Shown here piece after piece: positions 134-18,697 of a stretch of 64,000 nucleotides of DNA. Location: NCBI RefSeq assembly GCF_016124105.1, contig NZ_JADGMQ010000015.1, positions 1 to 64,000 of the forward strand, in the 5' to 3' direction. The DNA is from Aquamicrobium zhengzhouense. Its GTDB lineage: Bacteria; Pseudomonadota; Alphaproteobacteria; Rhizobiales; Rhizobiaceae. The notes under the pieces are model-generated. The model was given only the letters and a program-made list of their open reading frames with translations. It was not told the origin of the DNA and did not search any database. A program made the position numbers and the translations under genes. Position 1 is the first letter of the stretch, and every line of letters starts with the position of its first letter.

Positions 134-733
134 TTACGCCAGCACCACGCCCTCATCGCGCATCTTTTGCTTCATCGCTTCCAGCGAGCCGCCGAGGTCG
201 ATGGCGCGGCAGGCGTCCATCAGGACGGTGGCCTTGAAGCCGAGGCGCATGGCGTCGATGGCGGAGTAGGCGACGCAGAAGTCGGTGGCGAGGCCGACCA
301 GCGTCACATCCGAAATGCCGCGCTCGCGCAGATAGCCGGCAAGGCCGGTCGGCGTTTCGTGGTCGTTTTCAAAGAAGGTCGAATAGGAATCGATCGCGCT
401 ACGGAAGCCCTTGCGGATAACAAGCTCGGCCTTGGTCCATTCGAGGTCCGCATGGAATTCTGCGCCCTTGGTACCTTGCACGCAGTGGTCGGGCCAAAGC
501 GTCTGTGGACCGTAAGGCATCTCGATGGTGCTGAAAGGATCGGCGCCCGGATGCGACGAGGCAAAGCTGGAGTGGCCAGTCGGGTGCCAGTCCTGCGTCA
601 GGACCGCATGGTCGAACTCGCCGATCAGGCGATTAACCAGCGGCACGATCTCGTCGCCGCCATTTACGGCGAGCGCGCCGCCGGGGCAAAAATCGTTCTG
701 CAGGTCGACGACGATCAGGGCGTTGGCGCTCAT
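134..733 (-). CDS. pncA: Nicotinamidase (isochorismatase-like hydrolase)
   Basis: Hydrolyses nicotinamide to nicotinate and ammonia in the cytosol, for NAD salvage and, here, probably to feed nicotinate catabolism. The 199-residue length is typical. Visible family residues are Asp10 in 'VDLQNDF', Lys108 and the nucleophile Cys153 in 'TDFCV' (catalytic triad), and Asp48, His50 and His83 (metal site, 'QDWHP' and 'DHC'). The ATG at 733 is chosen because GGAG lies seven bases upstream; the in-frame TTG just before it is less likely. The gene is transcribed divergently from the molybdenum hydroxylase genes. The 127-bp gap between them carries a palindromic operator candidate, which makes pncA a likely member of the same regulon. 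Confidence 0.95.
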   Translation of the reverse strand: MSANALIVVDLQNDFCPGGALAVNGGDEIVPLVNRLIGEFDHAVLTQDWHPTGHSSFASSHPGADPFSTIEMPYGPQTLWPDHCVQGTKGAEFHADLEWTKAELVIRKGFRSAIDSYSTFFENDHETPTGLAGYLRERGISDVTLVGLATDFCVAYSAIDAMRLGFKATVLMDACRAIDLGGSLEAMKQKMRDEGVVLA

Positions 734-792
734 CAAGAATCTCCTTCACAGCTTCTGCCGGGACGCTCGACCCAAACGCAGCGCAGTGCAAG

Positions 793-824
793 TTGCCGCA
801 GGGTAATATCGTTTGCATACGAAT
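793..824 (+). promoter_or_regulatory. Divergent promoter with palindromic operator, site 1
   Basis: GTTTGCATACGAAT (811-824) is an imperfect palindrome that matches site 2 (12270-12283) at 10 of 14 positions. A plausible plus-strand promoter is TTGCCG (793-798), a 17-bp spacer and CATACG (816-821), which would place the operator over the -10 element. The site lies between pncA and the molybdenum hydroxylase operon. The MarR-family regulator encoded at 7744-8163 is the natural candidate to bind it; this is an inference. Confidence 0.55.
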
Positions 825-860
825 GAGTTTCGGCGCATCATTTTGCCGGGAGCATATCAG

Positions 861-1718
861 ATGCGCTACGCGAAACCGAAGTCAGTGGACGAGGCAATCG
901 CGCTTCTCGGCGACGGGAGCTGGCGGCTTATTGCCGGTGGCACCGACTTTTATCCCGCTCAAGGCAACCGACCGATCCATGATGACGTGCTCGACCTCAA
1001 CGGATTGCGCGACTTGCGCTTCATTATCGAGGATGACGAGTATTTTGTCTTTGGCGCGCGTGCGACCTGGAGCGATATCGCCAAGGCCGCGCATCTGCCA
1101 CCAGCCTTCGACATGCTGCGCCTTGCCGCGCGCGAGGTCGGCTCGGTGCAGATCCAGAATGTCGGCACGATTGCCGGCAACCTCTGCAACGCGTCGCCCG
1201 CTGCCGACGGCGTGCCGCCGCTTCTGGCGCTGGATGCCGAGGTAGAACTGCGGTCGATCGAGGGCACGCGGTATCTGCCGCTATCCGATTTCGTTCTTGG
1301 CAATCGCCAGATCGCGCGGCGGTCAGATGAGCTGGTCACAGCCGTCCAAGTGCCAAAGCGCGCGGCCGAAGGCGTTAGCCATTTCGTCAAACTTGGCGCG
1401 CGGCGCTATCTCGTCATCTCGATTGCGATGGTGGCGGCGAGGCTGGTGCTGGATGAGAACCGTCGTATCGCGGATGCCGCGATTTCCGTTGGTTCGTGCT
1501 CGGCGGTCGCGGTGCGTTTGAGCGAACTGGAAGCTCAACTGCGAGGCGCTTCGGCAAGCCAGGTCGAGGCGGTCATCGCAGCGTCCAGCCTCGCTGAAAT
1601 ATCGCCGATCGATGATGTGCGTGCGACGGCAGATTATCGGCGTGAGGCCGCGCGAGAGATCGTCGTGCGGGCAGTCAGAGCCTGCCTTACCTACACAGAA
1701 GGGCAGAAAGCGGCATGA
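861..1718 (+). CDS. Molybdenum hydroxylase FAD-binding subunit (CoxM/XdhB type), probably of nicotinate dehydrogenase
   Basis: This is the medium subunit of a xanthine dehydrogenase-family enzyme, carrying FAD between the iron-sulfur clusters and the electron acceptor. The 285-residue protein has the PCMH-type FAD motif 'LIAGGTD' at 23-29 and the second flavin motif 'VGTIAGNLCNASPAADG' at about 101-117. The C-terminal half matches the CO dehydrogenase flavoprotein C-terminal domain. ATG 861 is chosen for its GGGAG ribosome site. A longer TTG start at 813 would run through the operator and is unlikely. The next gene starts inside its stop codon (ATGA), indicating translational coupling. From the neighbours (nicotinamidase, 6-hydroxynicotinate reductase) I infer nicotinate as the substrate; sequence alone cannot separate nicotinate from other N-heterocycles. 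Confidence 0.85.
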   Translation: MRYAKPKSVDEAIALLGDGSWRLIAGGTDFYPAQGNRPIHDDVLDLNGLRDLRFIIEDDEYFVFGARATWSDIAKAAHLPPAFDMLRLAAREVGSVQIQNVGTIAGNLCNASPAADGVPPLLALDAEVELRSIEGTRYLPLSDFVLGNRQIARRSDELVTAVQVPKRAAEGVSHFVKLGARRYLVISIAMVAARLVLDENRRIADAAISVGSCSAVAVRLSELEAQLRGASASQVEAVIAASSLAEISPIDDVRATADYRREAAREIVVRAVRACLTYTEGQKAA

Positions 1719-4444
1719 GCGAGATGCGCCTTTCCCTCGACGTGAATGGAAAGGCGCACACGCTTGATGTTGCACCGTTGGCGCGGCTTTCTGCGGTTTT
1801 ACGCGACGAGTTGAAACTGATCGGAACCAAGGTTGGCTGCGACGCGGGCGATTGCGGTGCGTGTACCGTACTTGTCGATGGCGAGACGGTGTGCGCGTGC
1901 CTGACGCCCGCCGCGGGTGTTGATGGAGCCAAGGTGCGCACGGTCGAGGGCATCGCCAATGGCAGCCTCTCGGCGCTGCAGCAATCGTTCCTGCGCCACG
2001 GCGCGGCCCAATGCGGCATTTGCACGCCGGCCTTTCTGGTCGCGGGCGCTGCGCTTCTCGAAAAGAACCCGACGCCTAGCGAAGAGGAAGTGCTGGATGC
2101 GTTGGGCGGTATCCTTTGCCGCTGCACCGGCTATCGCAAGATCATCGCGGCGGTGATGGACGCGGTCAACTTGACGCCGTGGCCGACGAACGACTGGGGC
2201 GTCGGCGCGTCGATCCCAAGGCTGGATGGCGAGCCGAAGGTGCGCGGGACGGAACTGTTTGGTGCAGATGAGCGGCCGGACGATGCGCTGTCGGTCATCG
2301 CGATCCGCTCGCCCTACTGGCACGCGCGGTTTGCGTTCGGCGATCTTGATGCGTTCGTGGCGCAGCATCCCGGCATAGTTGCCGTCTATACGCGCAGGGA
2401 CATCGAGGGCCGCAACGCCTTTGGCGTCATCCCGGCCTTTGCCGATCAGCCGGCACTGGCCGAAGATGTGGTGCGGTTTCGCGGTGAGGCGGTGGCGGTG
2501 ATTGCCGGCGAGCGCGAGGCGGTGGAAGAACTCGACCTTTCGACCTTCCCGATCAGCTGGGAAGAGCTTCCGCACGCGCTGACGCCGGACGTCGCGAAGA
2601 ACGGTTTTGTGCGTCTGCATGAGGGCCGTGAAAACAATATTTTGCTGCAAGGCGTCGTTGAGCGCGGCGATATCGAGACGGCGCTGAACGAGGCGGCAGT
2701 GATCGTCACGGGTGCGCTCGAAACCTCCTATGTCGAGCACGCCTATATCGAGCCTGAGGCGGGTTATGCCTTCATGGATGGCGATGTGCTGGTCATCAAG
2801 GCGTGCACGCAATCGCCGGTGATGGACCGGGACGACACTGCGATGGTGCTCGGCTTGCCGCGTGAAAAAGTCCGCGTGATTCCGACCGCGACCGGTGGCG
2901 GCTTTGGCTCGAAGCTTGATCTATCTGTACAGCCGCTGATCGGGCTGGTGGCGCTGAAGACCGGGCGACCCGCAGCGATGGTCTATTCGCGGCAGGAATC
3001 GATGGCCTCGACCACAAAGCGCCATCCGGCTTCCATGGTGGCGACGATCGGGGCCGACCGCGATGGGCGCATTCAGGCGATGGCGTTTGAGGGCGAGTTC
3101 AATACCGGCGCTTATGCCAGCTGGGGACCGACGGTTGCCGTGCGCGTGCCGGTGCATGCATCGGGTCCGTATTTTACGCCGAACTATCGTGCCGTCGGGC
3201 GCGGTGTGCATACGAATGGGCCGATCTCTGGGGCATTTCGCGGCTTTGGCGTGCCGCAAGCCGCGCTGATGCAAGAGACGCTCTACGACGAACTCGCCGA
3301 GCAGCTTCGCCTTGACCCGCTGGACCTGCGCCTCACAAACGCGCTGCGCGATGGGCAGTCGACGGTGAGTGGGCACGTGATCGAGAGCGGCGTTGGCATT
3401 GTCGCTTGCCTCGAAGCGCTGAAGCCGCACTGGCAGCGCGCGCGCAAAGACGCGCAAGCGTTTAATGCAACGCATGAGCATGTGAAGCGCGGTGTCGGTG
3501 TTGCTTCGTGCTGGTACGGTTGTGGCAATACTGGCATTCCGAACCCGTCGACGATGAAGATGGGCGTGACGCGCGATGGGCGCATCGTGCTGCATCAGGG
3601 CGCGGTCGATATCGGGCAGGGTTCGAACACGGTGATCGCGCAGATTGCGGCTGAGGCGCTGGGCCTGCCGCTTGACGCCTTCGACTTCGTCTATGGCGAC
3701 ACGGCGCTGACACCGGACGCGGGCAAAACGTCGGGCTCGCGGCAGACATACATTTCCGGCAAGGCGGCAGAACTTTCCGGCAAAGCGTTGCGCGATGCGA
3801 TCTTGCGCTTTGCCAATGTGTCGGGCGCAGCGACGCTGTCGCTTGACGGTGGTGCGTTGCAAGTGCGTGAGGGAGATGCCAGCCGCACGATTGCTCTCGG
3901 CGATCTTCCCGCTGATGAGGATGGTTTCGTCTTTGCATCATGTGAAAGCTATGATCCGCCGACCGTACCTCTCGACGCCAAGGGGCAGGGCAAGCCTTAC
4001 GCCGTTTATGGCTGGGGCGCGCAGATTGCTGAGCTTGAGGTTGATCTGAAGCTTGGCACAGTGAAGCTGATCAAGATCACGGCGGCGCATGATGTTGGCC
4101 GCGCGATCAACCCGCTTCTGGCGGAAGGGCAGGTTGAGGGCGGCATCGCGCAAGGCATCGGGCTCGCGCTGATGGAAGAATATGTTCCGGGCCGTACCGA
4201 AAACCTCCACGACTACCTCATTCCAACCATTGGCGACGTGCCGCCGATCGAAACCATTTTGATTGAGGTGCCGGATCCGGAAGGTCCTTATGGCGCGAAG
4301 GGACTTGGCGAACATGTGCTGATCCCGACCGCACCAGCCATCTTGAACGCGATACGCCATGCGTGCGGTGCGCGGGTGACGAAGGTGCCAGCAATGCCGG
4401 AGCGCGTGCTTGCAGCCATTCGTGCTGCGGGGGCGGTGAAATGA
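1715..4444 (+). CDS. Fused [2Fe-2S]/molybdopterin subunit, probable nicotinate dehydrogenase (6-hydroxylating)
   Basis: This 909-residue protein joins two subunits that are usually separate. Residues 1-150 are the small iron-sulfur subunit: plant-type cluster cysteines Cys42, Cys47, Cys50 and a fourth near 60, then 'QCGICTPAF' near 98-106 and 'CRCTGY' near 135. Residues from about 165 to 909 are the molybdopterin-cytosine-dinucleotide catalytic subunit, with 'GGGFGSK', 'GAFRGFG', 'GQG' and the terminal 'GAKGLGE' containing the expected base-catalyst Glu866. The family hydroxylates N-heterocycles with water-derived oxygen. The context argues for nicotinate to 6-hydroxynicotinate. The fusion lacks a cytochrome c domain, so electrons presumably leave through the FAD subunit. 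It overlaps the upstream stop by four bases. Confidence 0.85.
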   Translation: MSEMRLSLDVNGKAHTLDVAPLARLSAVLRDELKLIGTKVGCDAGDCGACTVLVDGETVCACLTPAAGVDGAKVRTVEGIANGSLSALQQSFLRHGAAQCGICTPAFLVAGAALLEKNPTPSEEEVLDALGGILCRCTGYRKIIAAVMDAVNLTPWPTNDWGVGASIPRLDGEPKVRGTELFGADERPDDALSVIAIRSPYWHARFAFGDLDAFVAQHPGIVAVYTRRDIEGRNAFGVIPAFADQPALAEDVVRFRGEAVAVIAGEREAVEELDLSTFPISWEELPHALTPDVAKNGFVRLHEGRENNILLQGVVERGDIETALNEAAVIVTGALETSYVEHAYIEPEAGYAFMDGDVLVIKACTQSPVMDRDDTAMVLGLPREKVRVIPTATGGGFGSKLDLSVQPLIGLVALKTGRPAAMVYSRQESMASTTKRHPASMVATIGADRDGRIQAMAFEGEFNTGAYASWGPTVAVRVPVHASGPYFTPNYRAVGRGVHTNGPISGAFRGFGVPQAALMQETLYDELAEQLRLDPLDLRLTNALRDGQSTVSGHVIESGVGIVACLEALKPHWQRARKDAQAFNATHEHVKRGVGVASCWYGCGNTGIPNPSTMKMGVTRDGRIVLHQGAVDIGQGSNTVIAQIAAEALGLPLDAFDFVYGDTALTPDAGKTSGSRQTYISGKAAELSGKALRDAILRFANVSGAATLSLDGGALQVREGDASRTIALGDLPADEDGFVFASCESYDPPTVPLDAKGQGKPYAVYGWGAQIAELEVDLKLGTVKLIKITAAHDVGRAINPLLAEGQVEGGIAQGIGLALMEEYVPGRTENLHDYLIPTIGDVPPIETILIEVPDPEGPYGAKGLGEHVLIPTAPAILNAIRHACGARVTKVPAMPERVLAAIRAAGAVK

Positions 4445-4469
4445 GTGATCTGGCGCTGGCGTGGCGATT

Positions 4470-4741
4470 ACTTCCACCCCTAACTCCTGCCCACAGGGAG
4501 GAGGGGGATTTGAGTGTGTACTCGCGTCTGCGGGCAGCAGTTCAACACTTTGCGCTGGCGCTTGAGGATAGAGCGAAGAGAGTGGGGACGAGGTTGGCGC
4601 GACAAGTAGCCTCGACCCTTTCCCCTCCCCACGAGGGGGAGAGGGATATTGAGAGGTACCACACCGAGAGACGGAATATCGAACGGCGCATGCCTCACCG
4701 TTTCCCCTCCCCCTTGAGGGGAGGGGTGAGGGGTGGGGGTA
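4470..4741. repeat. Three REP-like palindromic elements
   Basis: The 351-bp gap between the hydroxylase and the reductase holds no convincing gene. It does hold three imperfect GC-rich palindromes near 4470-4510, 4612-4652 and 4697-4741, each built on a CCCCTCCC/GGGGAGGGG stem. The third has a directional tail of the form GGGGTGAGGGGTGGGGGT. The same unit recurs as an inverted pair at 9952-10092. They look like repetitive extragenic palindromes. They could form mRNA hairpins that lower expression of the downstream genes. Confidence 0.7.
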
Positions 4742-4795
4742 TTTCAGCCGCTGCGGTTCTAAGTGTTGGGGTCTGCAATCGCCTCGGGTGTTGCC

Positions 4796-6304
4796 ATGGA
4801 TGAACTCACCCAAACCCAACCCGCCACCTCCCCAGCTGAAAAGCTGCGCTGCGATGCGTGTCCGGTGATGTGTTACATCGCCGAAGGTCGGACCGGGGCA
4901 TGCGATCGGTATGGCAATTTTGGCAATAGGATCGTGCGTTGTGATCCGGTGGCGATCCTCGAACATCGTGCGGAAACCGGCGGAGAGGCGGTTGCGGTTT
5001 CGGACAACTGGGATGGCAATCCGGTCAATTGCGAAAGGCGGTTTGTCAGCGGGATTGGCGCTGGCACGACCTATCCCGACTTCAAGCCCGCCCCGTTCAT
5101 CGTCAGCCAGGAGGTCGAGGGCGTTGATCTGGTGACGGTCGTGACCGAGGCGATCTTTTCCTATTGCGGCGTCAAGGTGAAGATCGACACGGATCGCCAT
5201 ATCGGCGCAGAAACGGCGATCGTGCGGGCGCAAGGCGAGCCGATCGGGCATGTAACGACGGCCGAATATGGCTCGCAGATGCTGTCGATCGGCGGCGTGC
5301 GGCATCTTACCGGCGGATCAAAGTCCGAAGGGCGCGTGACCTGCGAAGCGATGCTGGCGCTGTGCAATCGCCAGCCGGTAGAACTCACCATCGATGACGG
5401 CTCGACGATTATCGTGCAGGCCGGACAGCCGCCGATCATCGATGGGCGCACCGAGCATCGCATGCGTGTTGGCTGCGGTTCGGCGACGATCGGCATGTTC
5501 GCGACACAGTGGAAGGGGCTCGTCGACGAAGTGGTCGTGGTCGATGACCACATTACCGGCGTGGTGTCAGAACATCAGGCCGGCAAGGTGATCGGCTGGC
5601 AAGATACCGGCATCAAGATCGTCGGGCGACGCTCGACGCCGGGCCGGTACTTCAGGGTGTCGGAGCCGGGTCTCGGCTGGGGCGGCACGATGCTGAACGA
5701 TCCGCTCGAGATTTTGGGGGACTGGAACGCAAAGAAGGGCGCGCGGCCGGGCCTGTCGCTGATGATGGTGTCGACGACCGGCGAGCAGTTTGCCTATTTC
5801 GAACTCGACGATGATCTGAAGCCCGTCGAAAAACCATTTCCGGAACGGCTACGCAAATCCGTTGATCTGATTGAGGACAATTGTGAGCCGGCTTTGTGCA
5901 CCGTGCTTTTCATGGGCGGGGCGGGGGGCTCACTGCGTGCAGGCGTGACGGAAAATCCGGTCAACCTGACGCGCTCGGTGCAACGCTTGCAGACCTATGT
6001 CACGTGCGGTGGCGCGCCCGTCTATGTCTGGCCGGGCGGCGGCATCACGCTGATGGTGGACGTGACGCGACTGCCCGACAATTCATTTGGCTATGTGCCG
6101 ACACCGGCGCTGGTCGCGCCTCTCGAATTCACCATGCGCCGCGATCACTATGAGGCGCTGGGCGGCTATGCGGGCGAGATCCGCAGCGTGGACGATGTGC
6201 TGGATCGGGGCGGTGAATATTTCAATCCGCGCGCGACGCCGCAGGCACCGAGCGGCAATCCGTGGCCGCCGCTGGCGCAATTGCGGCGCGAGCGGCCGTC
6301 ATGA
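4796..6304 (+). CDS. 6-hydroxynicotinate reductase-like iron-sulfur flavoprotein
   Basis: The family reduces 6-hydroxynicotinate to 1,4,5,6-tetrahydro-6-oxonicotinate with reduced ferredoxin; it is known from nicotinate fermentation in Eubacterium barkeri. The 502-residue protein has an N-terminal cysteine cluster, Cys19-x2-Cys22-x3-Cys26-x9-Cys36 ('CDACPVMC'), suited to a [4Fe-4S] centre, and several glycine-rich stretches ('GSATIGMF', 'GGAGGSLRAGV'). ATG 4796 starts just before this cluster. A GTG start at 4763 would add 11 unremarkable residues. Its position between a nicotinate-type hydroxylase and a flavin-transferase-like gene supports the assignment. I recognise the family from overall pattern; substrate specificity is inferred from context. 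Confidence 0.75.
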   Translation: MDELTQTQPATSPAEKLRCDACPVMCYIAEGRTGACDRYGNFGNRIVRCDPVAILEHRAETGGEAVAVSDNWDGNPVNCERRFVSGIGAGTTYPDFKPAPFIVSQEVEGVDLVTVVTEAIFSYCGVKVKIDTDRHIGAETAIVRAQGEPIGHVTTAEYGSQMLSIGGVRHLTGGSKSEGRVTCEAMLALCNRQPVELTIDDGSTIIVQAGQPPIIDGRTEHRMRVGCGSATIGMFATQWKGLVDEVVVVDDHITGVVSEHQAGKVIGWQDTGIKIVGRRSTPGRYFRVSEPGLGWGGTMLNDPLEILGDWNAKKGARPGLSLMMVSTTGEQFAYFELDDDLKPVEKPFPERLRKSVDLIEDNCEPALCTVLFMGGAGGSLRAGVTENPVNLTRSVQRLQTYVTCGGAPVYVWPGGGITLMVDVTRLPDNSFGYVPTPALVAPLEFTMRRDHYEALGGYAGEIRSVDDVLDRGGEYFNPRATPQAPSGNPWPPLAQLRRERPS

Positions 6305-7170
6305 TCGGCCCGCAAGCGGCGATGTTGGCCGATGGCAAACGGCTGCATCTCAATCATGGTCCGATCGATCTGATCATCGAAGCCTTTGGCGATTATGCCG
6401 AGGTCGAGGCCGCCTATTCGCAGGCGAAGGTCCGTTTTGCGACGATCTTGACCGAGCTCGTTGAAGAACTTGCCGCGTTGCGCGCGCCTTCGACGACCAT
6501 CGCGAGGCCGTTTCGAGGGCGGACGGCACAGCGCATGGAGGCTGCGGTTAGCCGCCTTGCCAGCGGAAAATTCATCACGCCGATGGCGGCGGTGGCGGGC
6601 AGTGTGGCGGATGAAATGATGGCTGCGATGCTGCGCGGGCGACGTCTGCGCCGAGCCTATGTCAACAATGGCGGTGATAACGCGCTCTTCCTCGCGCCGG
6701 GCGAGGAGATGAAGGCGGCGATTGCCGGTACCGGGCATAGTTTTGCTGATCGCGTGACGATCCGTTTTGATGATCCGGTGCGCGGGATCGCCACCAGCGG
6801 CTGGCGCGGGCGCAGCCACTCGCTCGGCATTGCCGATGCAGTGACGGTGCTGGCCGAGGATGCGGCATTAGCTGATGCGGCCGCAACGTTGATTGCCAAC
6901 GCCGTGGATCTGCCGGAGCATCCGGCGATCGAGCGCACCCCGGCGAACGTGCTTGCGCCTGACAGCGATCTTGGCGCGCGGTTGGTGACGACGGGGGTGG
7001 GCGCGCTTGATGATCGCGAGATTGCGCAGGCGCTGGAGCGCGGATTGCTGGTCGCAGAAGAGTTTGTGGCGCGGGGGCTGATTGTCTCGGCAGCGCTGTT
7101 CCTGAAAGGTCAAAGCCGCCTTGCCGGCGCGCTGGCCAATGAGACGCGGAGGAGTTTGGTTCATGCCTGA
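6301..7170 (+). CDS. UPF0280 family protein (ApbE-like fold)
   Basis: A 289-residue protein of the UPF0280 family, which shares the fold of ApbE FMN transferases. Its biochemical role is not established. Visible features are 'GPIDLIIEAFG' near 20-30, the 'AAVAGSVADEMM' segment near 97-108, 'AYVNNGGDNALFL' near 119-131 and 'GIATSGWRGRSHSLGIADAVTVLA', which resembles the ApbE-type 'GIATSG' and 'H..G.ADA' motifs. ATG 6301 overlaps the preceding stop (ATGA). Tight coupling to an iron-sulfur flavoprotein suggests it may flavinylate or mature that reductase. It has no signal peptide, unlike periplasmic ApbE, so any action would be cytosolic. Confidence 0.8.
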   Translation: MIGPQAAMLADGKRLHLNHGPIDLIIEAFGDYAEVEAAYSQAKVRFATILTELVEELAALRAPSTTIARPFRGRTAQRMEAAVSRLASGKFITPMAAVAGSVADEMMAAMLRGRRLRRAYVNNGGDNALFLAPGEEMKAAIAGTGHSFADRVTIRFDDPVRGIATSGWRGRSHSLGIADAVTVLAEDAALADAAATLIANAVDLPEHPAIERTPANVLAPDSDLGARLVTTGVGALDDREIAQALERGLLVAEEFVARGLIVSAALFLKGQSRLAGALANETRRSLVHA

Positions 7171-7747
7171 ATTCAAGGTGCGCAAGATCGCGGTGGTGAC
7201 CGAGGAGATCATGCATGATGGCGGGCCGGTGGCTGAGACACCACGCCGGCGCGGCGCAGCAATGGCGCTGGTGTCGAACCCGTTTGCTGGCACCTACGCC
7301 GAGGAATTGCAATCGGCGATGGATGATCTGACGGCTCTCGGGCTGGCACTCACCGACAAGCTAATCGGGGCGCTGGGCGGCGATATTTCTACCATCGACG
7401 GCTACGGCAAGGGCGCGATTGTCGGCACGGCGGGTGAGATCGAGCATGGCGCGCTGTGGCATGTGCCGGGCGGCTATGCGATGCGCGAGCGGCTGGGCGC
7501 GACCAAGGCGATCGTGCCATCGGCGATGAAGGTCGGCGCGTTTGGCGCCAGCCTCGACGTGCCACTCGGCCATGCCAACGCTGCCTATGTGCGCAGCCAC
7601 TTTGATGCGATCACGGTGACCGCGCCGGACGGGCCGCGGCCGGATGAAATCCTGTTCGTGCTCGCCATGTCCTGCGGTGGGCGCGTTCATTCGCGCATGG
7701 GCGGGCTTGAAGTCTGGCAGATCAAGGGCGAGGACGGGCTGCGGTGA
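7163..7747 (+). CDS. AA_synth (PF06684, formerly DUF1185) family protein
   Basis: A 194-residue cytosolic protein of the 'amino acid synthesis' family, whose function is unproven. Motifs seen include 'KIAVVTEEI' near 7-15, 'NPFAGTY' near 41, 'GKGAIVG' near 83 and 'SAMKVGAFGASLDVPLGH' near 120-137. ATG 7163 has an excellent GGAGGAG site and overlaps the upstream gene by eight bases; the next gene overlaps its stop. It therefore belongs to the same transcript as the reductase and UPF0280 genes. A role in handling the ring-opened or reduced nicotinate intermediate is possible, but that is inferred from location only. Confidence 0.75.
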   Translation: MPEFKVRKIAVVTEEIMHDGGPVAETPRRRGAAMALVSNPFAGTYAEELQSAMDDLTALGLALTDKLIGALGGDISTIDGYGKGAIVGTAGEIEHGALWHVPGGYAMRERLGATKAIVPSAMKVGAFGASLDVPLGHANAAYVRSHFDAITVTAPDGPRPDEILFVLAMSCGGRVHSRMGGLEVWQIKGEDGLR

Positions 7748-8163
7748 GCAGCCCGAAGAACTACGTTCTCGACGAGCAGATAGGCTTTGTGCTGCGCAAG
7801 GCGAACCAGCGCCACATCGCGATCTTTGCCAAGCATATCGGCGAACTCACCCCGCCGCAATTTGCGGCGCTCGCCAAGCTTGATGAGGTCGGCGAGACCT
7901 CACAGAACCAGCTTGGCACCTTGGTTGCGATGGATGGCGCGACGATCAAGGGCGTGATCGACCGGTTATGCAGCCGGGGGCTCGTCGCGCTCGGCAAGCA
8001 TGAGGATGATCGCCGCCGGTTGATGGTGAGCCTCACCGACACGGGGCGTGAAGCGGTGACGCGGCTCAAGCGCATGGCGGCCGACATTTCAGCAGAAACG
8101 GTCGCGCCGCTGACGCCGGACGAAACTGCAACTTTGATGCGGCTCTTGTCGAGGATCAGTTGA
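7744..8163 (+). CDS. MarR-family transcriptional regulator
   Basis: A 139-residue winged-helix repressor of the MarR type. The recognition region 'TSQNQLGTLVAMDGATIKG' lies near residues 54-72, followed by the wing with 'HEDDRRR', the family's hallmark. The GTG start overlaps the stop of the preceding gene, so it is co-transcribed with the pathway enzymes. That arrangement fits an effector-released autoregulator of the catabolic island. The two near-identical palindromes at 811-824 and 12270-12283 are the predicted targets. A pathway substrate or intermediate such as 6-hydroxynicotinate is a reasonable guess for the ligand. It meets hyuB tail to tail with an eight-base overlap. Confidence 0.88.
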   Translation: MSSPKNYVLDEQIGFVLRKANQRHIAIFAKHIGELTPPQFAALAKLDEVGETSQNQLGTLVAMDGATIKGVIDRLCSRGLVALGKHEDDRRRLMVSLTDTGREAVTRLKRMAADISAETVAPLTPDETATLMRLLSRIS

Positions 8164-8166
8164 TCC
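8153..8166. terminator. Palindrome across the convergent marR/hyuB stops
   Basis: GGATCA-GT-TGATCC is a perfect 6-bp inverted repeat that contains the stop codons of both converging genes. The stem is short and has no T-run, so terminator activity is uncertain. The symmetry itself helps both reading frames end within eight shared bases. Confidence 0.3.
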
Positions 8167-9898
8167 GGCTGCGACAGGAAGCCGTTGCGGCGGTGTCTAT
8201 CGTGCCATCGCGGATCACGACGCCGAACAGCTCTTCGGCCTGCGCTTCCGAATAATAGCCGAGGCGCACATCGTTCAGCACCTTTTCGGGCGAACGCTCG
8301 TTCGGATTGCCATAGCCGCCACCGCCGGGTGTTCCGACGCGAACGCGATCGCCGGCCTTCAGCGGAATATCCTGTTCCTTCGATAGATGCGGCGGGACAT
8401 GTTCTTCGCCGTCGCGGAAGACGGTGACGGTATTGACCCCGCCATCCTTACCGCCGAGCGCGCCTTGCGGGCCGAAACGGCCGTGATCCATGACGAAGGA
8501 GGCGCGTGCGTCGCCGCGCAGAAGTTCGATCTCGTAGTCGAGCCCCATGCCGCCGCGCTGTTTGCCGGCACCGCCAGAGCCTTCTCGCAGGCGATAGTGG
8601 TTGTAGAGGATCGGGTAGCCTTGCTCCATGATTTCGACCGGCGGCGATTTCGAGATGCCGATGGTCGAGCAGCCATTGGAGAGGCCATCATGGTCGGCAT
8701 TGCCGCCATAGCCGCCGCCCGACAATTGGTAGAGCACGAAGGCGCGGTTGCGCTCGGGGTCAAAACCTCCAAGGCCGAAATTGCCGCTGGAGCCGGCGGG
8801 CGCTGCCGTCACCTGATCAGGCAGGGCTTTGACCATGGCCGAGAAGACAGCTTCGGCGATGCGTTGCGAGACTTCCGCCGCGCAGCCCGAGACGGGGCGC
8901 GGATACGCGGCGTCGAGGAAGGTGCCTTCCGGTTTGCGGATCACCAGTGGTTCGAACGCGCCGGCGCTGATCGGTACATCGGGGAAGATGTGGCGCATCG
9001 CGAGGTAGACCGACGAATGCGTCGTCGCCAGCACCGAGTTCATCGGCCCTGCACAAGGCGGGCTTGAGCCGGCAAAGTCGAAGGTCAGCGTATCGCCGGC
9101 CTTGTCGATGGCGAGACGGATTTCGAGTGGCTCATTCACCACGCCGTCGGAATCGACATAGGCGATGCCGTGATAGGTGCCATCCGGGATCGCCGCGATG
9201 CGGGCGCGCATGCGGGTGGCGGCGCGGCGACGAAGTTCCGCGATGGCGTCGATAACGGTCTCGTCGCCGTAGCGGTCAAGGATCGCGAACAGACGCTCCT
9301 GGCCGACATGGAGCGCCGCCGCTTGAGCCTTAATATCGCCGATGCGCTGCTCGGCAATGCGGATGTTCGACGTGATGATGGCGTAGATCTCGGGGTCGAG
9401 CGCGCCCTTCTTGAAGAGTTTCACCGGGGGAAGGCGAAGGCCCTCTTGCTCGACGGCGGTGGCTGAAGCCGAAAAGCCGCCGGGCACTGCGCCGCCGATG
9501 TCCGGCCAATGGCCGGTATTCGACAGCCAGCAAAAGATCTTGTCATCGCGAAAGACCGGCATGGCAAAACGCACATCCATCAGATGGGTGCCGCCAAGAT
9601 AGGGGTCGTTGACGATGTAGATATCGCCCTCTTGTGGCGCGAGAACCCGGCCTCGCGCGATCATCTCGATGATCGTGCGAGTGGAATACTGCATGACCCC
9701 GACAAAGACCGGCAACCCACCGACGCCCTGCGCAATCAGCGAGCCGTCTTCTGCGGAATAGATCCCATCCGAGCGATCATTGGCCTCGGCGATGATTGGC
9801 GAAAATGCCGAGCGCGAAAAGGCCAGATCCATTTCATCGCAAACCTGCTGGAGGCCTGCTTCGATGACGGACAGCGTGACGGCGTCGATGGGGGTCAT
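8156..9898 (-). CDS. hyuB: Hydantoinase/oxoprolinase subunit B
   Basis: A 580-residue member of the hydantoinase B/5-oxoprolinase C-terminal family, the partner of the ATP-dependent subunit A encoded upstream at 10119-12188. Such pairs hydrolyse cyclic amides such as N-methylhydantoin or 5-oxoproline at the expense of ATP; related proteins carboxylate ketones. Family features seen are 'RSAFSPIIAEANDRSDGIY' near 29-47, 'DPYLGGTHLMD' near 96-106, 'GHWPDIGG' near 128-135 and glycine-rich C-terminal stretches near 'GTPGGGGYG'. In this context it could open the lactam ring of 6-oxo-tetrahydronicotinate in place of the enamidase used by Eubacterium. It is separated from hyuA by 220 bp of REP-like DNA. 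Confidence 0.85.
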   Translation of the reverse strand: MTPIDAVTLSVIEAGLQQVCDEMDLAFSRSAFSPIIAEANDRSDGIYSAEDGSLIAQGVGGLPVFVGVMQYSTRTIIEMIARGRVLAPQEGDIYIVNDPYLGGTHLMDVRFAMPVFRDDKIFCWLSNTGHWPDIGGAVPGGFSASATAVEQEGLRLPPVKLFKKGALDPEIYAIITSNIRIAEQRIGDIKAQAAALHVGQERLFAILDRYGDETVIDAIAELRRRAATRMRARIAAIPDGTYHGIAYVDSDGVVNEPLEIRLAIDKAGDTLTFDFAGSSPPCAGPMNSVLATTHSSVYLAMRHIFPDVPISAGAFEPLVIRKPEGTFLDAAYPRPVSGCAAEVSQRIAEAVFSAMVKALPDQVTAAPAGSSGNFGLGGFDPERNRAFVLYQLSGGGYGGNADHDGLSNGCSTIGISKSPPVEIMEQGYPILYNHYRLREGSGGAGKQRGGMGLDYEIELLRGDARASFVMDHGRFGPQGALGGKDGGVNTVTVFRDGEEHVPPHLSKEQDIPLKAGDRVRVGTPGGGGYGNPNERSPEKVLNDVRLGYYSEAQAEELFGVVIRDGTIDTAATASCRSRIN

Positions 9899-9951
9899 GG
9901 CCGGGCACCATGCGGTTTTCTACGATGGGCGTGGTGTGAGGCGGAGACGGT

Positions 9952-10092
9952 GCTACCCCCACCCCTTACCCCTCCCCACAACGGGGAGGGGGATTCTGGA
10001 AGGGTTACGCCTAGGGCTAGTGGGATCGTGAGGCGCATGGTTTCATGTTTCCCCTCCCTCTTGTGGGGAGGGGTAAGGGGTGGGGGTGCCTT
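9952..10092. repeat. Inverted pair of REP-like elements between hyuA and hyuB
   Basis: Two copies of the element described at 4470-4741 face each other here (about 9952-10000 and 10046-10092). Each has a CCCCTCCC/GGGGAGGGG-type hairpin with a GGGGTAAGGGGTGGGGGT-like tail pointing outward. The pair fills most of the 220-bp gap and could fold into a long hairpin in the hyuA-hyuB transcript. No gene is seen in the gap. Confidence 0.75.
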
Positions 10093-10118
10093 GGCACCAG
10101 CATTTCCAGCCACCGCTC

Positions 10119-12188
10119 TCATCCGCCTACCTCAATGATCAAATTGCCATCTCTGTCGGTGGTGACGTGATCGTTGGGTTCGACGACCGTCGTGGCGTCG
10201 AATTGTTCGATGATGGCGGGGCCGGGGAAGGTGGCGTCTAAGGGGAGTTTTTCGCGGGCGTAGACGGGCGTGTCGATCCAGGCACCGTCGAACCAGACCG
10301 GACGGCGCTCGATGAGTGCGGCGTCGAGCGTTGCTTGCCGGCCAGACGGGTCGATCAGCGTGGAGAGATCAATGTCGGGGCGCTCGCCGATGACGGATGT
10401 GTTGAGGTTGACGAGGTTGGCGCGGATTTCGGGAAGCTCGACGCGGAAGCGGGCGAAATAGGCTTGTTCGAACAGTGCCTGCAATTCGGCCCGGCGGATT
10501 TCTCGGCTCGGCAACGGCACGTTGATGAGGTGCGTCTGGCCGACGAACTGCATGTCGGCAGAGTGGATGAAACGCAGCGCCTTGGGACGGATTGCTTCTT
10601 TGGCGATCAGTTTTTCGCCCTCCGCTGCTTGCGCCGCGAGAAGGTCGGTGAGTGCGGCTTCGTCGACGTCAGCGACGGGTCGGTTCACGGTGCGCACAAA
10701 ATCGTGGCGAAGGTCGGCGACGACGCAGCCGAGCGCATTGGTAATGCCGGGGCGGGCAGGCACGATCACTTTTGGGATCGAAAGCTCACGCGCGATGGCG
10801 CAGGCGTGGAGCGGGCCGGCACCGCCGAAGGCGAAGAGTGCGAAATCACGCGGGTCACGACCCTTGGCGACCGAGACCATACGGACCGCGCCAGCCATTT
10901 TCAGGTTGCCGAGTTTGAGGACTGCGCCGGCTGCGGCAACGCCATCAAGGCCGATGCCATTGCCGATCTTGTCGGCGAAGATTTGCTCGACGGTCTCGAG
11001 CGCGACGGGATTGTCGACGGCGAGCAGCTTTTTGCGGTTGAGGCGGCCAAGGACGAGATTGGCGTCGGAAAGGGTTGGCTCAGTGCCGCCGCGGCCATAG
11101 CAGATGGGGCCGGGGGTTGCGCCGGCGCTTTCGGGGCCAACCTTGATGAGGCCGGCTTCGTCGAGCCGGGCAATCGAGCCACCGCCAGCGCCGACAGTGT
11201 GCACGTCGACCATCGGCACGTGGATCGGCATCGCATATTCGATCTCGATTTCGTTCGAGACCGATGGCTGGCCGTCGCGGATGAGGGCAACGTCGGTGGA
11301 AGTGCCGCCCATGTCATAGGTGACGATGTTGGCAAAGCTGGCGCGGCGCGCGGTGTAGGCGGCGGCCATGACGCCGGACGCGGGGCCTGACATGACGGTT
11401 TTTGCGGCCTCATCGGCGACGAACCGTGCGGAAATCATGCCGCCATTGCCGTTCATGACGAGGAAGTCGCGGGCATAGCCACGCGCCGACAATTCACCGG
11501 CAAGGCGCGCGACGTAGCGCTTGAGGATTGGCTGGACCGAGGCGTTGACAGCGGCGGTGACTCCGCGTTCGAACTCGCGTGCTTCGGACAAAAGTGAATG
11601 GCCGGTCGTCACATGCTCGTTAGGCCAGATGGCGCGCACGATCTCGGCGGCGCGCTGTTCGTGAGCCGGATTGGCATAGGCGTGGAGGAAGTGGATGACG
11701 ACGGATACGCACCCCTTGGCGAGGAGATCGCGCGCGGCTTCAGCGACGGCTTCCTCGTCGAGCGAGATGCGGACCTTGCCGCTTGCCTCCATGCGTTCGG
11801 GCACTTCAAGGCGCAGATCGCGCGGGATGACCGGCACGAAGATCCCGGTCATGCCGTAGGCTTGCGGGCGGGTGCGCCGGCCAAGCTCGATCACATCGCG
11901 AAAGCCGGCGGTGGTGATCATGCCCGTGCGGGCAAGCCTGCGTTCAAGAACCGCATTGGTCGTCGTGGTGGTTCCGTGGACGATAAGATCTATATCAGCT
12001 AAGGAAACGCGGGTTTCGTCCAGTGCTGCGATGACCCCGAAGGCCTGATTTTCGACGGTGGTGGGAACCTTGGCCAAGCGGATCTGGCCGTTGCCGCTGC
12101 TATCGATAAGGAGAAGATCAGTGAAAGTTCCGCCGACGTCGATCCCGGTCACAACCCCTCCGGATGACATTGCGGCATTTTCATTCAT
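10119..12188 (-). CDS. hyuA: Hydantoinase/oxoprolinase subunit A
   Basis: A 689-residue ATP-dependent subunit of the hydantoinase A/oxoprolinase N-terminal family, with the actin-like ATPase fold. Motifs are the phosphate-binding 'GIDVGGTFTDLLL' at about 15-27, 'DMGGTSTDVALI' near 290-300 and 'VGAGGGSIA' near 330. The expected substrate is a cyclic amide; from the neighbours I suggest the lactam made by the 6-hydroxynicotinate reductase. The first ATG (12188) is used, although a second at 12170 is also possible. It heads the minus-strand arm of the island. Its upstream region shares an operator-like palindrome with the ferredoxin reductase promoter. Confidence 0.87.
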   Translation of the reverse strand: MNENAAMSSGGVVTGIDVGGTFTDLLLIDSSGNGQIRLAKVPTTVENQAFGVIAALDETRVSLADIDLIVHGTTTTTNAVLERRLARTGMITTAGFRDVIELGRRTRPQAYGMTGIFVPVIPRDLRLEVPERMEASGKVRISLDEEAVAEAARDLLAKGCVSVVIHFLHAYANPAHEQRAAEIVRAIWPNEHVTTGHSLLSEAREFERGVTAAVNASVQPILKRYVARLAGELSARGYARDFLVMNGNGGMISARFVADEAAKTVMSGPASGVMAAAYTARRASFANIVTYDMGGTSTDVALIRDGQPSVSNEIEIEYAMPIHVPMVDVHTVGAGGGSIARLDEAGLIKVGPESAGATPGPICYGRGGTEPTLSDANLVLGRLNRKKLLAVDNPVALETVEQIFADKIGNGIGLDGVAAAGAVLKLGNLKMAGAVRMVSVAKGRDPRDFALFAFGGAGPLHACAIARELSIPKVIVPARPGITNALGCVVADLRHDFVRTVNRPVADVDEAALTDLLAAQAAEGEKLIAKEAIRPKALRFIHSADMQFVGQTHLINVPLPSREIRRAELQALFEQAYFARFRVELPEIRANLVNLNTSVIGERPDIDLSTLIDPSGRQATLDAALIERRPVWFDGAWIDTPVYAREKLPLDATFPGPAIIEQFDATTVVEPNDHVTTDRDGNLIIEVGG

Positions 12189-12254
12189 GCGGGCAACCGG
12201 GAACGTTGCATCTACCCTCGACGCCTAATTTGGAATGCCAGTTTAGACCCTGAT

Positions 12255-12283
12255 CTTGACGCAATAATCATTTGTATACTAAT
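12255..12283 (+). promoter_or_regulatory. Divergent promoter with palindromic operator, site 2
   Basis: ATTTGTATACTAAT (12270-12283) is symmetrical at 12 of 14 positions and matches site 1 upstream of the molybdenum hydroxylase. CTTGAC at 12255-12260 is a strong alphaproteobacterial -35; with a 16-17 bp spacer the -10 (TACTAAT) falls inside the palindrome. That promoter would serve the ferredoxin reductase gene. On the other strand TTGCCA (complement of 12293-12298) gives a possible hyuA promoter with its -10 in the same palindrome. Confidence 0.6.
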
Positions 12284-12363
12284 AATTGTCGCTGGCAAGC
12301 ATCAAGCAGAAGCGGTTGGCCTCGCGCCGCGCAGCCAGATAATCAGAAGACAGGACCGACGGA

Positions 12364-13191
12364 ATGAATACAGCTGCGCGCCAGGAAATCGGCAACGCAC
12401 GTCCCGTGGAATTTCCGATTCCAGCGAACGTACACGCGGAAAAAGTTGTTTCCGTGCGCCACTATACAGACAGGTTGTTTTCTTTCCGTATCACGCGGCC
12501 TCAATCATTTCGGTTCCGCTCGGGCGAGTTTGTCATGATCGGTCTGCCGAACGCTGAAAAGCCGGTGTTCCGCGCCTATTCCGTTGCCAGCCCGGCCTGG
12601 GATGATGAGCTGGAATTCTATTCGATCAAGGTTCCAGATGGCCCGCTGACGCAGCACCTGCAGAAAATCCAGCCCGGCGACACGGTGCTGATGCGGCCAA
12701 AGCCGACCGGGACCTTGGTGCTTGACGCGCTGACGCCGGGCAAGCGCCTGTGGATGATCTCGACCGGCACCGGACTTGCGCCGTTCGCCAGCCTGATGCG
12801 CGATCCTGAGACCTATGAGAAGTTCGAGGATGTCATCCTCACGCATACGTGCCGGGATGTCGGCGAGCTGACCTATGGCGAGGAGCTGTCGAAGGCGCTG
12901 GTGGAAGATCCGCTGATCGGCGAACTGGTTGACGGACGGTTCCGTCATTACGCCACGACGACCCGCGAGACCTCAGCGAAGATGGGGCGCATCACCGACC
13001 TCATCGAGAGCGGCAAATTGTTCGAAGATCTTGGCGTGCCTGCCTTCGATCCGGCGGTTGATCGGGTGATGATCTGCGGCTCGATGGACATGATCCGCGA
13101 TGTGAAGGCGCTGGTGGAAAGTTTCGATCTCACCGAAGGTGCGAACAACAAGCCGGCTGAATTTGTCGTCGAGCGCGCTTTCGTCGGCTAG
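12364..13191 (+). CDS. fpr: Ferredoxin-NADP(+) reductase
   Basis: Transfers electrons between NADPH and ferredoxin or flavodoxin in the cytosol. The 275-residue protein has the FAD motif 'RAYSVASP' near 74-81, the pyrophosphate/NADP motif 'STGTGLAPFASL' near 136-147, 'CGSMDMI' near 239-245 and the C-terminal 'VERAFVG' typical of alphaproteobacterial subclass enzymes. It is divergent from hyuA across an operator-like palindrome that matches the one controlling the nicotinate genes. It could therefore supply reduced ferredoxin to the 6-hydroxynicotinate reductase. It may equally be the general-purpose Fpr of the cell. It converges on the GGDEF gene with an eight-base gap. Confidence 0.92.
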   Translation: MNTAARQEIGNARPVEFPIPANVHAEKVVSVRHYTDRLFSFRITRPQSFRFRSGEFVMIGLPNAEKPVFRAYSVASPAWDDELEFYSIKVPDGPLTQHLQKIQPGDTVLMRPKPTGTLVLDALTPGKRLWMISTGTGLAPFASLMRDPETYEKFEDVILTHTCRDVGELTYGEELSKALVEDPLIGELVDGRFRHYATTTRETSAKMGRITDLIESGKLFEDLGVPAFDPAVDRVMICGSMDMIRDVKALVESFDLTEGANNKPAEFVVERAFVG

Positions 13192-13199
13192 CGGATTTC

Positions 13200-14342
13200 T
13201 CACGCCACGGCCTGATAATCTTCGTCAAGCACCACGCGATCGCGTCCGTCGTCTTTGGCGCGATAGAGTGAGGCGTCGGCGCGGTGGAGGACTTCATCGA
13301 AGCTGGCGCTGTCATTCGCGGCGAACGCAATGCCGGCGCTGACAGTCGCGGAAAGCCTTCCTGACGGGGTTTGCATAGCGCTTAGCGCACATAGCATTCG
13401 GATGCGATCCGCAACGGCAGTCGCCACTTTGGGCGACGCGTGATGGAGCACGAGAACGAATTCTTCGCCTCCGGTTCGTGCTGCGATGTCGCCCTCGCGT
13501 ATGTTCTCCCGCATGATCGATCCAAAGCAGCGTAGAACCTCGTCACCAGCGGCATGACCGAAGCGGTCGTTGATGCTCTTGAAATGGTCGAGGTCGAAAA
13601 CAATCACCGCGCTGCCCGCCCTTAGCGGCCGCGTCTCCATCATGGAGAACAAGGCGCGCCGGTTCAGAAGTCCCGTGAGCGGGTCGGTGCGGGCTTCCTC
13701 CCGGTGTCGGCGTGCGGCGCGCAGATTGTTGAGGCTCAGCGACAGGGCGCCTATGCCGGTGATGCCTGCGATGCAGGCGATCGCGTTGATCTGCTCGGCC
13801 CAGTTGGCTGGGGGAGCGTGAAGCACAAGCTGTCGCTGCTGAATAAGTACGACGCCGCAAGCGAAGAATGACAAGGCCGACAGGACGTAGATCGCGGACA
13901 TCGCGGTGATGGCTGATGGCGCTTCCGCACGCGCCTTCCAGTAGTGAAGGCCTGTCGCCACGAGGAGCGCGGCAGCCATGAAGTTGTAGATGGCGATGCC
14001 CAGGCCGTCATATCCTGCGAGGGTCGGCACGACGACCGGGGGGATTGTGGCAAGTAAGATTACAAGGGTCTGTCGTGACGTGCGGTGCCCGGTGAATTTT
14101 CTTGCTGCACAATATATGACCATAAAGCCGGCAAGCTCGGTGCCGAAGGCGAGTGCAACCAGTCGCATATTATCGGTGGGCATTAGGTGATAGCCGAGCA
14201 CACCAACGGCCAAAAGTAACATGCCGAGCGTCCAGCCGACCAGAAAGATGTCTGCCCGGCTGGAAAACCATGCGCTCAGGATCGTCAGGGCCAGCGCAGC
14301 AGCGCAAATGCCTGCGGCGATGAATAGAGATGCCTGATCCAT
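13200..14342 (-). CDS. Membrane diguanylate cyclase (GGDEF domain)
   Basis: Predicted to make cyclic di-GMP from GTP. The 380-residue protein has about six hydrophobic helices between residues 5 and 205, forming an uncharacterised membrane sensor, then a GGDEF domain from about 215. The active site reads GGEEF at 291-295, a functional variant. An allosteric I-site 'RxxD' (Arg282-Asp285) lies exactly five residues upstream, so product inhibition is expected. 'FDLDHFKSINDRFGH' near 249-263 is the usual metal- and substrate-binding region. No EAL domain is present. It is transcribed alone and no partner is evident nearby. Confidence 0.93.
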   Translation of the reverse strand: MDQASLFIAAGICAAALALTILSAWFSSRADIFLVGWTLGMLLLAVGVLGYHLMPTDNMRLVALAFGTELAGFMVIYCAARKFTGHRTSRQTLVILLATIPPVVVPTLAGYDGLGIAIYNFMAAALLVATGLHYWKARAEAPSAITAMSAIYVLSALSFFACGVVLIQQRQLVLHAPPANWAEQINAIACIAGITGIGALSLSLNNLRAARRHREEARTDPLTGLLNRRALFSMMETRPLRAGSAVIVFDLDHFKSINDRFGHAAGDEVLRCFGSIMRENIREGDIAARTGGEEFVLVLHHASPKVATAVADRIRMLCALSAMQTPSGRLSATVSAGIAFAANDSASFDEVLHRADASLYRAKDDGRDRVVLDEDYQAVA

Positions 14343-14428
14343 GATGAGTGCGTCCCCCGCGCCTGATCGCCCGCAGGGTGACGCAAGGTCATATAACGCA
14401 CAGTTAAACTCGGCGCTCGAAATATTCC

Positions 14429-14875: not shown

Positions 14876-14890
14876 AGATAGTCTCTAGGT

Positions 14891-16710: not shown

Positions 16711-16781
16711 CGTAACCTCCTGTCAGATTGCCGCCGCTGCAACCAGCGACGGCACAGATCTGAATTTCTGGAAGGAGTGCG

Positions 16782-17774: not shown

Positions 17775-17844
17775 TGGGTTCCTCCCGTTCAAGAATACCG
17801 CCCTTGGCTCCACCCCGGCGGTTGCCGTATTCATGACATTCGAC

Positions 17845-17894: not shown

Positions 17895-17989
17895 ATCATT
17901 TCTGTGCGGAAGCTGTCGGGCGCTTCCGGTGCCTCTTGTGCGTTTCGTGGGCCGTGTGCAAACGTCGCCCTATCAATCTGGAGGAAGGC

Positions 17990-18664: not shown

Positions 18665-18697
18665 AACACGGATCACAAGGCAGCGGGTGCTGGAACA

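Follow-up and report, generated by a model that had tools for sequence, protein, structure and literature searches.

How is the pyridine ring opened when a gene cluster apparently built for the reductive breakdown of nicotinate comes without the enzyme expected at that step? The question is raised by ten genes at positions 134-13191 of a 64,000-nucleotide stretch of DNA (the window) from Aquamicrobium zhengzhouense, which opens contig 7 of a genome of 4.07 Mb (29 contigs). In order, these genes encode a nicotinamidase, the flavin adenine dinucleotide (FAD) subunit and the fused FeS-Mo subunit of a molybdenum hydroxylase, a protein resembling 6-hydroxynicotinate reductase (Hnr), UPF0280, DUF1185, a MarR-family regulator, HyuB, HyuA and the ferredoxin reductase Fpr. 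Our data indicate that the cluster is probably an operon group for aerobic reductive nicotinate catabolism, with an ATP-dependent HyuAB lactamase, and not enamidase, as the ring-opening enzyme. An initial annotation had described the nicotinamidase, hydroxylase, Hnr-like protein, HyuA/HyuB, ferredoxin reductase and MarR regulator as packed together, and all of them are present. The two genes between Hnr and MarR that it left unnamed, UPF0280 and DUF1185, belong to the cluster as well, and the absence of enamidase, with HyuAB in its place, is likewise new with respect to that annotation.

In the proposed pathway, nicotinamidase would yield nicotinate, which the molybdenum hydroxylase would turn into 6-hydroxynicotinate. 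Hnr, with electrons from NADPH via Fpr, would reduce this compound to 1,4,5,6-tetrahydro-6-oxonicotinate (THON), a six-membered lactam. HyuA would activate THON with ATP and the metal site of HyuB would hydrolyse it, giving the enamine 2-(aminomethylene)glutarate, from which DUF1185, or water alone, would free ammonia to give 2-formylglutarate. The last compound would be converted to glutarate; genes for this step were not found here, and a route from 2-formylglutarate to glutarate was reportedly described by Kitts et al. in 1992. UPF0280 would mature Hnr, and MarR would use a single palindromic operator to repress the promoters of the hydroxylase and of hyuA/fpr. The computed support for this scheme comprises gene content, the exchange of HyuAB for enamidase, a shared operator and the coupling of Hnr with UPF0280, and each reaction is proposed from homology and genomic context.

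Enamidase (Ena) is the established ring-opening enzyme of the reductive nicotinate route. The search for Ena was seeded with a plasmid-borne amidohydrolase adjoining hnr (locus L005) that matches the solved enamidase 2vun (E 2.4e-111). Thresholds were E 1e-60 for Ena and 1e-200 for HyuA in the family sample, and 1e-100 and 1e-200, respectively, in the class sample outside the family. The A. zhengzhouense genome gave no Ena match at E 1e-60. A profile built from six Hnr sequences matched 76 of 199 family genomes and 41 of 279 genomes of the class sample, which, minus the A. zhengzhouense genome itself and one weak match (G380, E 3.4e-4), leaves 39 outside the family and 115 hnr-bearing genomes overall. 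The initial annotation had suggested comparing the co-occurrence of these families across genomes, and in that comparison 79 of the 115 carried window-type HyuA only, 33 Ena only, one both and two, both incomplete genomes, neither. The family genomes with hnr contributed 56 with HyuA only, 18 with Ena only, one with both (G051) and one with neither (G043, 76% complete); the class genomes outside the family contributed 23, 15, none and one (G424, 70% complete). Over the whole family sample, HyuA was found in 61 genomes, 57 of these with hnr, and Ena in 27, of which 19 had hnr and eight did not (53-61% identity). The 239 class genomes without hnr gave one Ena match and eight HyuA matches. Among 26 hnr-bearing plasmids, 16 carried an Ena match of at least 65% and the other 10 a HyuA match of at least 60%, with none having both or neither. 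In three close relatives (G118, G156 and G074) the cluster is otherwise window-like but HyuAB and DUF1185 are gone, and an Ena-like gene lies elsewhere (57% identity in G118, 70% in the other two).

The HyuA/Ena label was then placed on an Hnr tree of 115 sequences, of which one was joined from two pieces and the shortest had 273 residues. The label changed 12 times, with at least 7 changes forced by starred branches, and a single Ena clade was rejected (approximately unbiased test, p-AU 6.7e-58). Among independent pairs on starred branches (n=8), Ena was opposite to HyuA in 6-7, with a median p of 0.031. Because the split is near-exclusive and the label has switched repeatedly on the tree, HyuAB probably replaces Ena.

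A different division of labour within the same pathway has to be weighed at this point, since 93 of the 115 loci had DUF1185 close to hnr (a second DUF1185 type in 29 of 115) and it also stood beside Ena-like genes in hnr-less genomes, so that it too would be part of the ring-opening stage. HyuAB-like enzymes also carboxylate ketones, and acetophenone carboxylases were among the matches. HyuAB could then serve another step, with the ring opened by DUF1185 or an unrecognised hydrolase and the HyuA/Ena split marking two pathway lineages. We regard this as unlikely, as enzymes of different steps should often co-occur, yet HyuA and Ena are found together in only one of the 115 genomes and the Hnr tree shows repeated switches between the two; moreover, the HyuAB family is known for hydrolysing lactams, the compound class to which THON belongs. 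An obligate partnership of DUF1185 with HyuAB was ruled out because DUF1185 also stands beside Ena, and our guess is that it acts after ring opening. Its fold is of the Bacillus chorismate mutase type (PMC2954203), and a YjgF/RidA fold class was considered and dropped, the available part of that paper giving the former fold without mention of YjgF. A DUF1185 homologue, TgnF, has been assigned to the trigonelline pathway, according to the part of the source available (PMC7913881). The eight hnr-less family genomes mentioned above (L195-L203 without L197) all have DUF1185 in two copies, along with a MarR-like gene, by their Ena-like genes, and these may form a related ring-opening unit that works without Hnr.

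The features of HyuAB fit the assignment of ring opening to an ATP-dependent lactamase. HyuB residues D41, H105, D108 and H130 align with Asp41, His99, Asp102 and His124 of the caprolactamase subunit CapB, so that the Asp-His-Asp-His metal site is intact, and the phosphate motifs of HyuA (GIDVGGTFTD at 15 and DMGGTSTD at 292, aligned to 7hk5) are intact as well. Judged from its sequence, HyuAB is a caprolactamase relative with a substrate of its own, not a caprolactamase. CapAB and OplAB, as far as the accessible text of their descriptions goes (PMC8453981, PMC11033972), are likewise two-subunit ATP-dependent lactam hydrolases in which the metal tetrad and phosphate motifs are conserved, whereas the proposed substrate of HyuAB is an unsaturated lactam and its product would be an enamine. 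OplAB opens delta-valerolactam, a six-membered lactam as is THON (PMC11033972, available part). In the literature searched, mostly outside subscription journals, neither hydantoinase nor oxoprolinase was found linked to 6-hydroxynicotinate or enamidase in a ring-opening sense. At three loci (L149, L151 and L159) HyuA and HyuB were continuous in a single open frame of ~1300 codons, like the single-chain enzyme 7hk5.

The identity of the substrate bears on a second alternative, in which the cluster degrades another N-heterocycle (a substituted nicotinate, pyridone or pyrimidine) and nicotinate is not the main substrate. The best PDB matches of the fused hydroxylase are the aldehyde oxidoreductases 1dgj (E 1e-132) and 1sij, with nicotinate dehydrogenase 3hrd_A at E 1.2e-83, and the protein falls under every NCBIfam equivalog cut-off. 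In addition, a HyuA-DUF1185-MarR group without hnr adjoins nucleoside hydrolases on a Sinorhizobium plasmid. We consider this alternative improbable, as the adjoining nicotinamidase passes its own cut-off and shares an intergenic operator with the hydroxylase. The fused hydroxylase was near hnr in 102 of 115 loci and a NicB-like protein in three, always in place of the fused hydroxylase, with the two standing together in none; neither was in view in 10. Moreover, an aerobic strain with an hnr cluster grows on nicotinate via 6-hydroxynicotinate, according to the part of the report available (PMC3511419). The Sinorhizobium medicae plasmid concerned (pMl3, L277) carries, at 6932-15992, HyuA (66%) with DUF1185, MarR, an isochorismatase-like hydrolase, two nucleoside hydrolases and genes for an ATP-binding cassette (ABC) transporter, and its HyuAB-DUF1185 unit may open a ring in another pathway, perhaps a nucleoside one.

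The association of HyuA and Fpr with the rest of the cluster was examined further through the operator. The operator profile was learned from 55 nicotinamidase-hydroxylase intergenic stretches alone and gave the palindrome CATTTGTATACAAATG, 24 bits. Matches scoring >=15 within 300 bases upstream were counted, with random stretches as controls and all promoter stretches masked. The operator was found upstream of HyuA in 52 of 66 cases and of ferredoxin-NADP reductase (FNR) in 58 of 64, largely in one common intergenic stretch, compared with 14 of 19,146 controls. It also preceded the FAD subunit in 78 of 96 cases, which are partly the training set, the nicotinamidase in 47 of 57 (the same stretches), and NicA-like genes in 2 of 3. 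For Ena the count was 8 of 35 (8/27 in hnr genomes, 0/8 in hnr-less ones), and the counts for the remaining genes were 16/90 (MarR), 7/115 (Hnr), 0/62 (HyuB) and 0/114 (UPF0280). In 87 of the 115 loci, Hnr had MarR nearby.

These counts also bear on the idea that HyuAB and fpr lie near hnr through a shared catabolic neighbourhood, by inherited linkage with no common function, which would agree with the clustering of the HyuA/Ena label on the tree (12 changes, against a mean of 28.6 after shuffling). Of 20 unlinked loci examined, in which HyuA stands away from hnr, 19 retain the HyuA-FNR pair, and each of their intergenic stretches lies above the 99% control level, with 16 of 19 within one mismatch of the operator pattern, which, unlike the profile learned from one promoter set, was chosen after both sets had been viewed. 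None of the unlinked regions exceeded the 99.9% control level, a level that had been fixed by stretches which overlapped the site. For linked regions, 0 of 27 exceeded the 99% level where the control stretches themselves contained the operator, and the comparison was repeated with promoter stretches masked. Within the window the pattern alone is weak (2 matches, expectation 0.30; at least two matches arose in 4 of 100 shuffles). HyuAB-fpr is thus often away from hnr and yet keeps the operator, and the absence of HyuA goes with the presence of Ena, so that linkage alone is a very improbable explanation.

Several observations weigh against ring opening by HyuAB in a nicotinate pathway as proposed here. 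The clustering of the HyuA/Ena label means that the plain Fisher value for the split (2.8e-25), which ignores relatedness, overstates the case, and one genome (G051) carries HyuA plus an Ena that is 62% identical. HyuA occurs without Hnr in 4 of 61 family matches (one at a contig break), in 8 of 32 matches in class genomes and, at 60% or above, on 7 of 17 plasmids; the seven plasmids, considered apart from the chromosomes, are six of Sinorhizobium medicae and one of Rhizobium rhododendri. Of the class-level HyuA loci from outside the family, only 1 in 14 had the operator, so that it is a family-level trait. Nicotinamidase is near hnr in only about half of the loci (58/115). Neither the hydroxylase, with its aldehyde-oxidoreductase-best scores and no equivalog, nor HyuAB, whose caprolactamase equivalog scores lie well under the cut-off of 1000 bits (491 for HyuA against CapA, 317.5 for HyuB against CapB), is assigned a substrate by sequence. 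Finally, the A. zhengzhouense genome has no second Fpr copy at E 1e-10, so that Fpr may be a household gene located here by chance. In relatives an Fpr-type gene also adjoins Hnr or Ena (L003, L005), and an electron path from NADPH through Fpr and perhaps ferredoxin to Hnr is plausible from the gene content; no ferredoxin gene was identified among the cluster genes.

Hnr gave no Pfam or NCBIfam match at 0.001. Genes from 26 plasmids share 58-70% identity with it, and many of these genes carry the annotation 6-hydroxynicotinate reductase, so its assignment as that enzyme is put forward by homology. The hnr clusters are widespread: named genome contigs yielded at least 588 confirmed Hnr relatives, of which 80 were kept. 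With numbering from window position 4799, cysteines 18, 21, 25, 35, 123, 182 and 226 are invariant in 115 of 115 sequences and cysteine 362 is found in 114, and residue 257, within the motif DDHITGxx[S/T]EH, is Ser or Thr in all 115. The AlphaFold model of Hnr has a mean pLDDT of 75.9 and a pTM of 0.74. A relationship of Hnr to DUF39 was considered and rejected after six Hnr sequences had been scanned against Pfam with E values of up to 10, the sole comparison made with that family; the scan gave GCV_T_C (0.0052, 6/6) and one topoisomerase match and no DUF39, and the A. zhengzhouense genome has no DUF39 match.

UPF0280 follows Hnr closely, being present in all 115 hnr genomes and in one of the 362 genomes without hnr. 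The family sample accounts for 76/76 and 1/123 (G089, with a contig break right there) and the class sample for 39/39 and 0/239. It is also on all 26 hnr plasmids and on a Hydrogenophaga sp. BPS33 plasmid (L276, 7938-8870) that has four UPF0280 copies and no Hnr, an exception to the Hnr-UPF0280 rule; in the stretch viewed, one copy stands beside a Rieske oxygenase, with a PDR/VanB reductase, MarR and IS1071. A fusion of Hnr with UPF0280 had been suspected in L065, and no fused frame was found among 213 adjacent pairs.

The profile of UPF0280 aligned with that of ApbE at a probability of 90 (E 1.6e-6) over 94 columns in the C-terminal half only, and comparison with a single ApbE sequence gave an hhalign probability of 0.4. 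D192 and T196 of UPF0280 (ADxxxT), invariant in 53 sequences, align with the ADAxAT motif of the flavin transferase ApbE, whose Asp and Thr we take to be the metal site. The SHIxDP histidine of ApbE (H252), presumably catalytic, is invariant in 11 ApbE sequences; unlike the Asp/Thr pair, which is common to both, it is not kept in UPF0280, where W or L stands in some rows. The model of UPF0280 has a mean pLDDT of 94.8 and a pTM of 0.92. The Hnr of Eubacterium barkeri bears a covalently bound flavin, and Ser/Thr 257 is a possible flavin attachment site in Hnr. As a distant ApbE relative that accompanies Hnr, UPF0280 is a candidate maturation factor of Hnr. In the accessible part of an earlier study, COG2122 was needed along with DUF39 for homocysteine synthesis and was distantly related to ApbE, the similarity seemingly stopping short of the ApbE flavin-binding region (PMC5764234). 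There, too, the protein accompanies a dedicated redox-type enzyme, whereas the partner here is Hnr, DUF39 having no match in the genome. Tentatively, UPF0280/COG2122 might be a general ApbE-derived maturase of unusual reductases that places flavin onto Hnr, and maybe the DUF39 enzyme too, within a pathway of which two versions are interchangeable, one using enamidase at no ATP cost and the other using HyuAB at the expense of ATP; we think this broader picture doubtful as a whole.

The proposal of a reductive nicotinate route in the initial annotation stands as the best reading available, given Hnr, the adjoining nicotinamidase, the NicB-like substitutes and the common operator, with the substrate and intermediates as predictions. 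The nicotinate fermentation cluster of E. barkeri (ndh, hnr, ena and others), reportedly described by Alhapel in 2006, likewise combines a molybdenum hydroxylase with Hnr, with THON as the presumed intermediate. By comparison, the cluster described here is in an aerobic host, has a fused FeS-Mo subunit where the Mo subunit of E. barkeri is split, has HyuAB for Ena, and adds UPF0280, DUF1185, MarR and Fpr. The first product of the oxidative NicAB-NicCDX (maleamate) route of Pseudomonas is 6-hydroxynicotinate, as proposed here, and NicB-like proteins are found in a few hnr loci. In contrast to that route, and as the initial annotation had pointed out, no flavin monooxygenase or ring-cleavage dioxygenase family was matched by the cluster proteins, to which the family searches were confined.

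The same annotation regarded an aerobic version of the reductive route as little described, which needs correction, as an hnr cluster from aerobes was published in 2012 (PMC3511419). In the available part of that paper, the cluster is conserved in Azorhizobium and Bradyrhizobiaceae, an aerobic strain mineralises nicotinate via 6-hydroxynicotinate, and the genes for the first three steps in Azorhizobium and Bradyrhizobiaceae SG-6C were found by Blast with E. barkeri genes, so that enamidase is implied; that part does not mention hydantoinase. The A. zhengzhouense genome differs in having no enamidase match. As far as this source goes, the pathway outline and the aerobic hnr cluster were already known, and the probable Ena replacement, the common operator and the UPF0280 coupling are new. 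If our interpretation is correct, 79 of the 115 sampled hnr genomes open the reduced pyridine ring by an ATP-dependent lactamase that the literature searched does not assign to nicotinate, and genomes annotated merely with hydantoinase/oxoprolinase would gain a substrate. It would also be a clean natural case of non-homologous enzyme displacement, several times over, in which the use of ATP by one enzyme and not the other is a cost difference needing explanation. The coupling of UPF0280 with Hnr would make the function of UPF0280/COG2122 testable in an ordinary aerobic bacterium.

Table 1. Coordinates of the cluster genes, operator copies and repeat elements in the window.
Feature	Positions	Strand	Evidence or remark
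Nicotinamidase (PncA type)	134..736	-	NCBIfam equivalog NF008623, 213.6 bits vs cut-off 174
Operator copy 1, MarR-type palindrome GTTTGCATACGAAT	811..824	+	One mismatch to ATTNGYATRCNAAT; profile score 24.3
Molybdenum hydroxylase FAD subunit	813..1718	+	Pfam PF00941, PF03450
Fused [2Fe-2S] + molybdopterin subunit, presumed nicotinate 6-hydroxylase	1715..4444	+	Pfam Fer2, Fer2_2, MoCoBD_1, MoCoBD_2
Palindromic repeat element, hydroxylase/hnr gap	4469..4741	.	Repeats D1, D2, D4; inverted pair I3, 41-nt arms
Hnr, 6-hydroxynicotinate reductase-like Fe-S protein	4796..6304	+	Open reading frame (ORF) listed from GTG 4763
UPF0280 / COG2122, distant ApbE-superfamily protein	6301..7170	+	ORF listed from GTG 6262; PDB 2o34 E 2.1e-11
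DUF1185 / PF06684 (AA_synth), Bacillus chorismate mutase-like fold	7163..7747	+	Pfam E 1.1e-65; PDB 3byq, 2qtp; ORF listed from TTG 7121
MarR-family regulator, presumed operator reader	7744..8163	+	Pfam PF01047
HyuB, metal-bearing subunit of ATP-dependent lactamase	8156..9898	-	Pfam PF02538 E 7.7e-159; PDB 6yra_B E 6.5e-73
Palindromic repeat element, hyuA/hyuB gap	9954..10087	.	Inverted pair I2, 37-nt arms, 95% complementary
HyuA, ATP-binding subunit of ATP-dependent lactamase	10119..12188	-	Pfam PF01968, PF05378, PF19278; PDB 7hk5_A E 1.9e-128, 6yra_A 6.1e-107
Operator copy 2, hyuA/fpr gap, ATTTGTATACTAAT	12270..12283	+	Exact pattern match; profile 21.9
Fpr-type ferredoxin-NADP reductase, presumed Hnr electron supply	12364..13191	+	NCBIfam NF008178, 146 bits, under cut-off 390

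The order nicotinamidase / hydroxylase / Hnr / UPF0280 / DUF1185 / MarR is repeated in the loci of many relatives, where HyuB-HyuA / FNR often comes next; this recurrence argues that the arrangement is not due to chance. The ATG at 861 is the more likely start of the FAD subunit because the listed TTG (813) sits within operator copy 1. The spacing between hydroxylase and Hnr and between HyuA and HyuB is explained by palindromic repeats, which are present in both gaps (4445-4795 and 9899-10118); these repeats resemble miniature inverted-repeat transposable element (MITE)-like palindromic inserts, each separating co-directional cluster genes. As the window begins at the contig start, the region upstream of the nicotinamidase is cut off, and in many relatives this region is occupied by a branched-chain-type ABC transporter. 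A membrane protein without any Pfam family (L006, 6773-8236; L002, 16897-18270) recurs near the cluster ABC transporter in many hnr loci.

Further along the window, 14429-19366 holds a class II dehydroquinase, TRAP (tripartite ATP-independent periplasmic) transporter genes DctM/DctQ/DctP and two regulator-like genes, with a shikimate dehydrogenase-like gene at 19409-20332. The TRAP transporter (14891-17858) was considered as a cluster member and ruled out, its neighbours being the class II dehydroquinase and the shikimate dehydrogenase-like gene. From its gene content, the 14429-20332 region looks like a unit for quinate/shikimate uptake and use, distinct from the nicotinate cluster.

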